DNA of 64,000 nucleotides from Methanotorris igneus Kol 5 (GTDB lineage: Archaea > AGJL01 > Methanococci > Methanococcales > Methanococcaceae): contig NC_015562.1 of assembly GCF_000214415.1 (NCBI RefSeq), forward strand, positions 248,001-312,000, given 5' to 3'. The notes under the pieces were generated by a model that saw only the letters and a list, made by a program, of their open reading frames with translations, was not told the DNA's origin and searched no databases. The position numbers and the translations under genes were made by a program. Below are positions 6,073 through 53,224 of the stretch, piece after piece (the stretch's first letter is position 1; each line of letters starts with the position of its first letter).

Positions 6073-6248
6073 TTTAAATCCTTATTACCTCCCCCAACTT
6101 TGGAGTATATACATTGAATCCTTTTTCAATTGCCCATTTTTTGAATGTTAAAACTTCAAGTTCATCCCCATGCTGAATTATGAGTGTTTCTGGATTAACT
6201 TTATTCACAAATTCGTGGAGTTCGTCCATTCCCGCATGCGCTGAAAAA
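6073..6248 (-). pseudogene. Duplicated 3' end of the beta-CASP nuclease gene
   Basis: These 176 bases are identical to 9382-9557, the 3' end of the beta-CASP ribonuclease gene, in the same orientation. The copy encodes the last 58 codons of that protein and its stop, and has no start. The two copies are 3309 bp apart and bracket the heptose operon exactly. Perfect identity implies a recent event or ongoing gene conversion. Sequence from 6249 to 6371 is plain AT-rich DNA with no gene. Confidence 0.93.
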
Positions 6249-9344: not shown

Positions 9345-9382
9345 AAGATCACCTAACTTATTTTTTATGCATTACTATAAAT

Positions 9383-10663
9383 TTAAATCCTTATTACCTC
9401 CCCCAACTTTGGAGTATATACATTGAATCCTTTTTCAATTGCCCATTTTTTGAATGTTAAAACTTCAAGTTCATCCCCATGCTGAATTATGAGTGTTTCT
9501 GGATTAACTTTATTCACAAATTCGTGGAGTTCGTCCATTCCCGCATGCGCTGAAAAATCGAATAATGTAACCTCTAATTTTGGTTTAATTTCTTGCCCAT
9601 TTATTATTAAATATCCTGTTTCAATTAAATATCTACCGTTTGTATCTTCTACTTGATACCCAGTTAATATTAATGAGTTTTCTGGATTATCCCACATCTC
9701 AGATAAATAATGCAGAATAGGTCCCCCATCAAGCATTCCGGCTGTTGTTACAACAATTCCCCCATTTTCTTTTAGGTATTCTATAACTTTTTCTCTTTCA
9801 TCTCTCGATTTAACTACATAAACCCTGCTATATGCTTTTTCTAATTTTTTTGCATCCCTTAAATATTCTGAATGCCTAAGCATAATTTCGGTAATCTCAA
9901 TTGCCATGCCATCAACAAATATTGGAACATCAAACTTCTCCTCCGCCAAAATTAGAAGGATTTCTTGAGCCCTATTTACTGCAAACACTGGAATTAATGC
10001 AACTCCTCCCCTATTGATTGTTTCTTTTATTTTTTGTAGGAATCTTTTTTCTGTCATTTCTCTATCTGGATGGATTGAGTTGCCGTAAGTTGATTCAATG
10101 ATTAAAACATCTATATCTTCATTTGCATAACTTAAATCAGCTCCTTTAACCAATCTTGTATCTCTAACCTTTATATCTCCAGTGTAAAGAATTTTTTTAT
10201 TGCCATAATCTAACAGTATCGATGCACTCCCAGGAATATGCCCAGCATCAAAATATTCATAAACAAAATCCTTAAAAACTCTTCTTTTGTTGTAGTATGT
10301 TGGAATATGCAAATTAATACATTTCTTTATGTCATGCATGTTAAACTTGGGGCTTATATGTTCAACCATCTCTATTTTTAATGAATCTTTCAACAACACC
10401 TTTGTAATTTCTTTTGTTAATGGTGTTGAATGTATTGGTGCATTTATCTGGTTATGTGTTAAAATTGGCAATGCCCCAACGTGGTCCAAATGAGCGTGGG
10501 ACACAAATACACCATCGACTTTAATATTGTCCAATATTGGGTATTTGGGGCCCTCCCCCGTTAATTTAACACCACAGTCCAATAAAATTTTACTTTCTCC
10601 GCTATCAATTTCTATGCAACTTCTTCCAACTTCCATTGCCGCTCCTCTGAATGTAATCTTCAT
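9383..10663 (-). CDS. Beta-CASP metallo-beta-lactamase ribonuclease (aCPSF2-like)
   Basis: A 426-residue metallo-beta-lactamase/beta-CASP nuclease without KH domains. It has VSHAHLDHVGALPIL (motif 2, HxHxDH), DAGHIPGSASILL, LYTGDIKVRDTR, LIIESTYGN (start of the beta-CASP domain), VTTAGMLDGGPILHYL and FDFSAHAGMDEL. Archaeal members act as RNA endo/exonucleases related to CPSF73. I use the ATG at 10663 after GGGGGGAATT; the longer frame to 10762 runs through a hairpin element and is not conserved-looking. The last 176 bases of the locus are duplicated at 6073-6248, on the other side of the heptose operon. Confidence 0.88.
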   Translation of the reverse strand: MKITFRGAAMEVGRSCIEIDSGESKILLDCGVKLTGEGPKYPILDNIKVDGVFVSHAHLDHVGALPILTHNQINAPIHSTPLTKEITKVLLKDSLKIEMVEHISPKFNMHDIKKCINLHIPTYYNKRRVFKDFVYEYFDAGHIPGSASILLDYGNKKILYTGDIKVRDTRLVKGADLSYANEDIDVLIIESTYGNSIHPDREMTEKRFLQKIKETINRGGVALIPVFAVNRAQEILLILAEEKFDVPIFVDGMAIEITEIMLRHSEYLRDAKKLEKAYSRVYVVKSRDEREKVIEYLKENGGIVVTTAGMLDGGPILHYLSEMWDNPENSLILTGYQVEDTNGRYLIETGYLIINGQEIKPKLEVTLFDFSAHAGMDELHEFVNKVNPETLIIQHGDELEVLTFKKWAIEKGFNVYTPKLGEVIRI

Positions 10664-10692
10664 AATTCCCCCCTTATTATGTTTAGAAAAAT

Positions 10693-10767
10693 TATAGTTG
10701 TGTGCGGAAATGATATACGGCAAAACCTTCGGTTTTGCCAAAAACCTTTCTAACGCACACAAATATA
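10693..10767. mobile_element. Small inverted-repeat element enclosing a hairpin (MITE-like)
   Basis: The left end is TATAGTTGTGTGCG; the right end, CGCACACAAATATA, is its near-perfect inverse. The 75-bp unit encloses the hairpin at 10716-10740. It lies directly upstream of the beta-CASP gene start and matches the terminal family seen at 52994-53224. Confidence 0.6.
10716..10740. repeat. Short mobile-type hairpin
   Basis: TACGGCAAAACC-TTC-GGTTTTGCCA. In reverse complement it reads GGCAAAACC-GAA-GGTTTTGCC-GTA, the same form as the copies at 28016, 28096 and 53019, including the 3' GTA. Confidence 0.75.
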
Positions 10768-10827
10768 ACTAAAAGTCGTACATCTTTATAAATATAACTC
10801 ACATTATAGATCCGAGACGAAAGGTTT

Positions 10828-10838
10828 ATATGGGGAGA
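10828..10838 (+). promoter_or_regulatory. TATA box before the solitary CRISPR-type repeat
   Basis: CGAAAGGTTTATATGG holds a BRE-like purine run and a TTTATAT box. A start site about 25 bases on would fall near 10860, inside a 16-bp palindrome and about 25 bases before the repeat at 10884. Confidence 0.5.
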
Positions 10839-10851
10839 GACGTATAACAAA

Positions 10852-10867
10852 TATTTCACGTGAAATA
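10852..10867. promoter_or_regulatory. 16-bp perfect palindrome, possible operator
   Basis: TATTTCAC-GTGAAATA is a perfect inverted repeat of two 8-base halves without spacer. It lies where a transcript from the TATA box at about 10830 would begin, a usual place for a repressor site in archaea. The binding protein is unknown. Confidence 0.4.
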
Positions 10868-10883
10868 AGGAAAATTCCCAACT

Positions 10884-10913
10884 GTTAAAATCAGACCATT
10901 GTGGGATGGAAAT
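10884..10913 (+). CRISPR. Solitary CRISPR-type repeat
   Basis: A 30-base unit, GTTAAAATCAGACC followed by ATTGTGGGATGGAAAT. It matches the 30-base repeat family I recall from M. jannaschii (starting with TTAAAATCAGACC and ending in GGAATGGAAAT) except in the middle. No second copy follows; secG begins 75 bases downstream. It differs from the 37-base repeats of the array at 47799-48134. It may be the leader-proximal remnant of a collapsed array or a stand-alone Cas6 site. Confidence 0.7.
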
Positions 10914-10987
10914 ACAAGAGAAAGATGAAAAAATTTAAATAATAAAAAAGCTTAGGAATTAAGTAAATAAAAATATCTGGTGGTTTT

Positions 10988-11149
10988 ATGTCCAAAAGAG
11001 AAGATAGAGGACTTGCTACAAGTGCTGGATTAGTAAGATATATGGATGAGTCACTCTCAAAAATAAGGATAGAGCCAGAGAAGGTTATAGGAATAACATT
11101 ATTCATAATTGTTGCTGAGATTATTCTAACTTATGGGGTATTCCTATAA
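10988..11149 (+). CDS. secG: Preprotein translocase Sec61-beta/SecG subunit
   Basis: A 53-residue gene. The protein starts [20 protein letters not shown], continues with a short amphipathic segment ([14 protein letters not shown]) and ends in one transmembrane helix ([18 protein letters not shown]). This is the standard form of archaeal Sec61-beta: a cytoplasmic N-terminus with the GL-T-SAGL-RY signature and a tail anchor. It is a subunit of the SecYE-beta protein-conducting channel. CTGGTGGTTTT provides the ribosome binding site. A TTTAAATA tract at about 10935 could be its own promoter; otherwise it is read from the TATA box before the solitary CRISPR-type repeat. Confidence 0.92.
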
Positions 11150-27885: not shown

Positions 27886-28015
27886 ATTTATTAAAAATAA
27901 AGCACCATATTGAATATTTAGGTTGCAGGGAAGTTGAATATAGTCGTGTGCACTAAAAATTAGAAATATGCTATATGATAAAATCATAAAGATTTATCCC
28001 TTATTTCAATTTTTT

Positions 28016-28041
28016 GGCAAAACCTAAAAGGTTTTGCCGTA
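28016..28041. repeat. Short mobile-type hairpin inside a MITE-like element
   Basis: GGCAAAACC-TAAAA-GGTTTTGCC-GTA. It interrupts sequence that is continuous (CAAATTTTAAGGAAG) in the sister element at 52994-53224. Confidence 0.8.
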
Positions 28042-28095
28042 CATTTTAAGGAAGGATAAGAACTATTTAAAAATTCATTAATGTATAAATAAAAT

Positions 28096-28121
28096 GGCAA
28101 AATCCTATAGATTTTGCCGTA
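28096..28121. repeat. Short mobile-type hairpin
   Basis: GGCAAAATC-CTATA-GATTTTGCC-GTA, following ATAAATAAAAT. The sister element at 52994 continues ATAAATAAG without it. Confidence 0.8.
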
Positions 28122-28132
28122 TATCCTATAAC

Positions 28133-47798: not shown

Positions 47799-48134
47799 GT
47801 TTCCAGCCATGTTTTAATGGATAAGGTATTCAAACTGGGGTTAGGTGACTATGGAGATGTGATTTCCAGAGAGTTTCCATCCTTGTTTTAATGGATGAGA
47901 TATTCAAACCTGAGGGGGAAGAATGATTGATTTGGAAAAATTAGGTTTCCATCCTTGTTTTAATGGATGAGATATTCAAACTAAGGTCAATAGAGAAGAC
48001 AAACAAAGCACTTGAGTAGTTTCCATCCTTGTTTTAATGGATGAGATATTCAAACAAAAAATTGAAAAACCAGATATTAAACCAGAAATTAAACCTGGTT
48101 TCCATCCTTGTTTTAATGGATGAGATATTCAAAC
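47799..48134 (-). CRISPR. CRISPR array, five 37-bp repeats, four spacers
   Basis: Repeats on the plus strand begin GTTTCCATCC and end GATATTCAAAC: 47799-47835, 47873-47909, 47945-47981, 48019-48055 and 48098-48134. Spacers are 37, 35, 37 and 42 bp. The leftmost repeat has four changes (CAGCCATG, ATAAGGT), marking the leader-distal end. On the minus strand the repeat ends ...AAGGATGGAAAC, the usual 5' handle, so transcription runs right to left. No cas gene is in the window. Confidence 0.97.
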
Positions 48135-48260
48135 CCTATAACTTTGTCCTTATTTTATGCCCAAACTCCTATATAAATCTTTCTTTTTCAACTCGAATTT
48201 TCTTACTACCCAATTATCAAACCCTTTATAAAAGTAAGAAAGATTGTGCAAGTTCTTTTT
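48135..48260 (-). promoter_or_regulatory. CRISPR leader and promoter
   Basis: Reading the minus strand, GAAAGATTTATATAGGAG (TATA box about 48170-48183) lies 36 bp before the first repeat, placing the start near 48146. The adjacent AT-rich sequence fits a leader. Between 48260 and 48510 I see no gene. Confidence 0.6.
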
Positions 48261-52926: not shown

Positions 52927-52993
52927 ATCATCACCCTAATAATTTTAATAAGTATTGCCGAACATTCTTCAAATTGAATTTAAGATGATGATT

Positions 52994-53224
52994 TATAGTC
53001 GTGTGCGTTAGAAAATTTGGCAAAATCCCTTGGATTTTGCCGTATAGTTTGGAAATATACTATTGGTAAATTCTTAAAGATTTATCCCTTATTTCAAATT
53101 TTAAGGAAGAATAAAGATTATTAGAAATTCATTAATGCATAAATAAGTTTAAAAATCCACTGCAACCTTCGGTTGCAGGGAAGTTGAATAACTACGTTAT
53201 TCAACTATTTCGCACACGACTATA
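52994..53224. mobile_element. MITE-like inverted-repeat element with nested hairpins
   Basis: The longest full copy, 231 bp, with perfect 14-bp ends TATAGTCGTGTGCG and CGCACACGACTATA. It contains a hairpin at 53019-53044 and, near the right end, GCAACC-TTC-GGTTGC plus GTTGAATAAC...GTTATTCAAC (53163-53206). Its core matches the truncated copy at 27939-28132. It occupies the gap between proS and the next gene. Confidence 0.88.
53019..53044. repeat. Short mobile-type hairpin inside a MITE-like element
   Basis: GGCAAAATC-CCTTG-GATTTTGCC-GTA, located 12 bp after the left terminal repeat; the copy at 27939 has no hairpin at this place. Confidence 0.8.

Follow-up and report, generated by a model that had tools for sequence, protein, structure and literature searches.

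The CRISPR repeat that stands alone at positions 10884 to 10913 of the analysed stretch of Methanotorris igneus DNA is preceded by a complete array leader of a second type, here called B, and the two together probably represent a spacer-less array that collapsed to one intact repeat and was orphaned when the adaptation genes of its lineage were replaced. The stretch, referred to as the window, covers 64 kb (positions 248001 to 312000) of a single contig of 1,854,197 bp. The observations that directly support this reading are the homology of the leader to those of populated arrays, the single repeat, a second B leader in the genome that is likewise followed by one repeat, the filled state of all 11 leaders of the resident A type and the mismatch between the B leader and the only Cas1 present.

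The solitary repeat and its leader

The 30-base repeat GTTAAAATCAGACCATTGTGGGATGGAAAT (10884 to 10913, plus strand) is intact, has a CCA/TGG stem and is spelled identically in the repeats that fill arrays in G003, G017 and G021, all from the same family as the window genome. No further copy with up to three mismatches was found in the window, and shuffled sequences gave zero matches, which places the occurrence far beyond chance. Genome-wide, its 29-nt class is matched at just one more site, by a repeat that lacks one base and lies within an A-type array. The earlier note had placed a lone 30-base repeat here, and its exact position was confirmed, together with a TATA box about 50 bp ahead (TTTATAT at 10825 to 10831, the repeat beginning 53 bp further on), a 16-bp palindrome beside it (perfect, at 10852 to 10867), the start of secG about 75 bp beyond it (10988, with 74 bases in between) and the difference from the 37-bp repeats of the array at 47799 to 48137. 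That array has five copies of its 37-nt repeat, which on the opposite strand ends in GGATGGAAAC; its 8-base handle ATGGAAAC is common to many A-type repeats, the remainder being different. For the solitary repeat, sequence comparison predicts that Cas6 cutting would leave the 8-base 5' handle ATGGAAAT (10906 to 10913, plus strand), which is also the handle of the A-type repeats of this genome.

The B-type leader, of about 110 bp (10774 to 10884, plus strand), is homologous to leaders that precede populated arrays of sister genera. When positions 10664 to 10987 were compared with these genera by BLAST, E values of 1e-21 (G003), 2e-21 (G017), 6e-19 (G021), 2e-16 (G009) and 1e-14 (G015) were obtained, and in all five genomes the leaders of multi-spacer arrays align with the roughly 110 bases before the repeat. 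The final motif of the window leader, AAATAAGGAAAATT...AACTG, is a shared one and abuts the repeat. The leader also contains a first AT-box TTTATAAATA (10785 to 10794, plus strand), whose columns T.TATA.A are conserved in the alignment of active leaders, and the BRE/TATA-like promoter element CGAAAGGTTTATAT (10818 to 10831, plus strand), of which TTTA.AT is conserved in active leaders. A transcript would be expected to start about 25 bases past this element, i.e., about 30 bases ahead of the repeat. The palindrome TATTTCACGTGAAATA occupies the leader position at which G009 leaders show an inverted repeat of their own, TATTTTA...TAAAATA, and binding of a protein to it is speculation. Since the TATA box and the palindrome belong to a leader that is homologous to those of populated arrays, the locus consists of a leader plus one repeat, and the suggestion in the earlier note of a collapsed array, or leader plus one repeat, with its own promoter is thereby supported. 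The same note had named the absence of any array with this repeat from the genome, combined with a lack of RNA processing at the site, as grounds for refutation. Such arrays are indeed missing from this genome, but the CRISPR reading gains strength from sister genera, whose arrays combine the identical repeat with the same leader.

Of 61 leader columns that other groups conserve, 53 are kept in the window, 54 to 55 in the active leaders of G003 and 35 at a further single B repeat that follows a decayed leader in the fragmented genome of G019; in a matching comparison, leaders of the G017/G021 group kept 56 to 59 of 61. The core of the window leader is, as far as these columns indicate, nearly intact and without visible decay. 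No second repeat was found in the 74 nt downstream of 10913, where a populated array would have at least two repeats and a spacer. A repeat family used in arrays and a leader adjoining the first repeat are the marks of a collapsed or minimal CRISPR, as which the locus from 10774 to 10913 can be read, distinct from a regular array.

Immediately before the B leader, the window holds a dispersed palindromic element (10688 to 10776) with the core GGCAAAACC...GGTTTTGCC, which recurs many times in the genome; related elements occur at about 28011 to 28125 and 52993 to 53046 of the window. Further upstream, an exact direct repeat of 176 bp (6073 to 6248 and 9382 to 9557) is the duplicated 3' end of the gene for a beta-CASP nuclease (9383 to 10663, minus strand). 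Between the two copies lie genes resembling GmhA, a PfkB-type kinase, a cytidylyltransferase and a GmhB-like HAD phosphatase, a block that resembles an inserted sugar-heptose island.

Two leader types and a single Cas1

A related 30-nt repeat of A type, TTAAAATCAGACCC[T/A]TAGGGGGATGGAAA[T/C], is matched 116 times in the genome, which has 11 A leaders (end ...attgtcctg), each followed by 6 to 17 repeats. Since all 11 populated arrays carry the A leader and repeat, the repeat at 10884 belongs to the second type, B, which has no populated array here. The only other B leader of the genome, at C1:3004-3135, is 84% identical to that of the window (BLAST E value of 4e-31) and is followed by one repeat, GTTAAAATCAGACCATGGTGGGAT, which has lost its 3' end, and then by TTACG. 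Terminal repeats typically lose their 3' end (PMC8047081), and the truncation is therefore as expected if the last repeat was the survivor. Reduction to one repeat thus affects both B leaders and none of the 11 A leaders (exact p = 0.013). Two arrays of the genome, at C1:1346378 and 1352412 (L217 and L218), lie 6 kb apart and share their first spacer ATTGTAAATTGGTTC..., which points to an array that was duplicated recently.

In five near-complete relatives, the smallest array among 33 leader loci, which were picked by the leader end and the first 13 bases of the repeat and thus independently of array size, had three repeats. G028 showed 3 to 14 repeats at each of the eight leaders examined. 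Solitary repeats of the congener G001 (on C87 and C5) were considered as instances of the same thing and rejected, as they are leaderless and the one on C5 lies beside an apparent transposase end. Each of these G001 repeats (L279, reverse strand, around 2977; L179, around 372) is preceded by a similar sequence, AATCACACTRTCAGT, and one is located between the end of an apparent transposase gene and cas2, a placement suggesting that an insertion sequence truncated these arrays. In several B-type arrays (L136, L141, L117 and L131, from G017 and G021), the first repeat is split after GACCAT by TTACGAGCRAAG..., and the same insert divides repeats at other array ends (L071, L072 and L080); it may be a small element that inserts into CRISPR repeats. 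A plasmid search with the locus returned chance matches only.

The single Cas1 of the genome is encoded beside a populated A-type array and type I-D genes. Its identity is 93% to the Cas1 of the congener and 75 to 92% to that of genus g5, the Methanocaldococcus-like kind from another family, versus 48 to 50% to the B kind in G003, G009, G015, G017 and G014. The core gene RadA is 84 to 87% identical to most g5 genomes (77 to 81% to three of them) and 79 to 84% identical within the family and shows no split of the Cas1 sort. A small, unrooted Cas1 tree parts the two kinds, and a B-kind cas1 is found no more than about 2 kb from a B leader in G003, G009, G015 and G017. No B-type cas1 is left in the window genome, and the kind of its Cas1 does not match the B leader. 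A tie between leader type and effector type was considered for G003, which has I-B effector genes, and dropped since the same leader accompanies I-D genes in G009; in this small sample, and with an unrooted tree, leader type would appear to be tracked by Cas1 alone and not by the effector. Cas6 proteins were detected with PF01881, and PF10040 missed them. The only PF01881-type Cas6 gene of the genome (L174, 7941 to 10580; G000:C1, about 884000 to 886600) is located apart from the other cas genes and adjoins a TnpB gene.

Other readings of the locus

A chance or convergent likeness to a CRISPR repeat is hardly credible and already refuted by the zero matches in shuffled sequence and by leader homology at E values of 4e-31 and 1e-21. 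Where secG is concerned, the earlier note had proposed a Cas6 processing site in its leader; in this reading, Cas6 would cut the secG mRNA at the repeat and thereby control the gene. The promoter of the CRISPR leader indeed aims at secG (Sec61-beta, 10988 to 11149, plus strand; PF03911, E value of 7e-12), the repeat could sit in its 5' untranslated region and the genome has its own Cas6. Beyond position, however, the proposal found no support: neither repeat nor leader was present upstream of secG in about 30 relatives, the congener included, and the region upstream of the gene differs in all relatives examined, so that a conserved secG regulatory element was rejected. The second B locus at C1:3004 has no secG, and a promoter-like, TATA-like sequence, TTTAAATA (10934 to 10941, plus strand, 20 bp past the repeat), is probably the gene's own promoter and could serve it alone. 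Control of secG through the repeat is thus very unlikely, and the gene is thought to be a neighbour outside the CRISPR locus. A search of contigs with secG as query gave two distant MAGs and nothing else.

Marginally better placed, although still improbable, is a regulatory or decoy RNA derived from the repeat and transcribed from the leader promoter, either a CreA-like guide or a Racr-like, Cas-binding solitary repeat unit. The promoter upstream and the 8-base handle shared with the host arrays agree with it, and ectopic repeats of such kinds are known; like the locus described here, CreTA antitoxin genes (PMC8501985) and viral solitary repeat units, or Racr (PMC10651486), combine an ectopic single repeat with a promoter upstream. 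They differ in having a degenerate second repeat, a seed target or a viral context. Downstream of 10913, the best alignment to a degenerate second repeat scored 6, equal to the background median of 6, and the 64-kb window contains no contiguous match of at least 10 to a putative guide. A CreA-like guide was rejected for the lack of a second repeat and of a local contiguous target in the window. The sequence past the repeat is of low complexity, a true and ordinary array leader lies upstream, and instead of the virus or provirus setting of Racr, the neighbours are housekeeping genes (beta-CASP nuclease, Sec61-beta, phosphoesterase and an ATP-pyrophosphatase-like protein).

Selection on both orphan B leaders would be a somewhat less remote explanation, if still a doubtful one, with the loci serving as landing sites at which new arrays could be filled once B-type cas genes had been transferred in, or as transcribed repeats that give Cas6-processed RNA. 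The near-intact state of the conserved columns in both B copies, despite a divergence of 36% over the aligned leader-repeat block, would agree with it. The strongest competitor is a live but empty array, i.e., a minimal CRISPR that is still able to take up spacers via the resident Cas1-Cas2 in trans or via incoming B-type cas genes. Leader and repeat are intact, one leader-adjacent repeat is enough for adaptation in other species, and a collapsed array of Legionella was refilled (PMC8047081), and collapse alone would therefore not render an array dead. The low identity of the resident Cas1 to that of the genomes with B leaders and the emptiness of both B leaders next to 11 filled A leaders argue against it, and a live array is ranked second, as an unlikely though not negligible reading. 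The "seed for new arrays" of the earlier note is, by the same token, possible in principle and doubtful here, the sole Cas1 not being of the kind found with B leaders.

Probable collapse and orphaning of the B array

An array that is both collapsed and orphaned is ranked first. According to this explanation, the B array most probably held spacers at one time, all of which would have been deleted by recombination between the identical first and last repeats, leaving one repeat. The Methanotorris-like lineage would have swapped its adaptation module, presumably in this order of events, so that a Methanocaldococcus-like cas1 is now present and the B leaders are left without their enzyme. The present Cas1-Cas2 would be unable to use the B leader, and the array would not have been refilled because the adaptation genes were replaced and no B-type cas1 is left. 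Several points speak against this reading. The core of the leader is preserved to the same degree as an active leader from a left-out genus (G003), more than would be required of an old relic; the surviving repeat at 10884 is intact, whereas terminal repeats often degenerate; and leader type is tracked by Cas1 but not by the effector, in a small sample and with an unrooted tree.

Precedents exist for parts of this scenario. The repeats of Methanocaldococcus jannaschii, as reportedly described by Bult et al. in 1996, are said to include one short repeat after a long (leader) repeat, which would be the same succession of leader and single repeat in the same repeat family and archaeal order; the eight leaders examined in G028, probably this species, had no fewer than three repeats each. 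Collapsed arrays have been predicted for arrays generally and were mimicked and refilled in the type I-F system of Legionella pneumophila (Deecker and Ensminger 2020, reviewed in PMC8047081). They share with the window locus the leader, the one repeat and the lack of a spacer, but here the leader type mismatches the Cas1 kind of the genome, two loci are affected and the host is a hyperthermophilic, methanogenic archaeon, while the refilling was shown in Legionella. In Escherichia and Salmonella, orphan arrays and leaders remain after cas loss (PMC2886076; PMC8616872), and there, too, leader and repeats persist longer than their cas genes. Such orphans often keep their spacers, whereas in the genome studied here the replacement was a different, complete CRISPR-Cas system.

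Arrays that have collapsed to one repeat are therefore already known, and the interest of the present case lies in the pairing of emptied arrays with changed adaptation genes. Array finders require two repeats and miss loci that consist of a leader and one repeat. The locus is most likely the fossil of a swapped-out immune system, of a CRISPR type that still works in sister genera. It would represent a natural case of CRISPR turnover, the older adaptation module having been supplanted by a new one and the arrays of its type having been emptied to leader plus one repeat. Two questions could be tested directly on it: is recognition of the leader by Cas1-Cas2 what keeps an array filled, and can an orphan leader be brought back into use?
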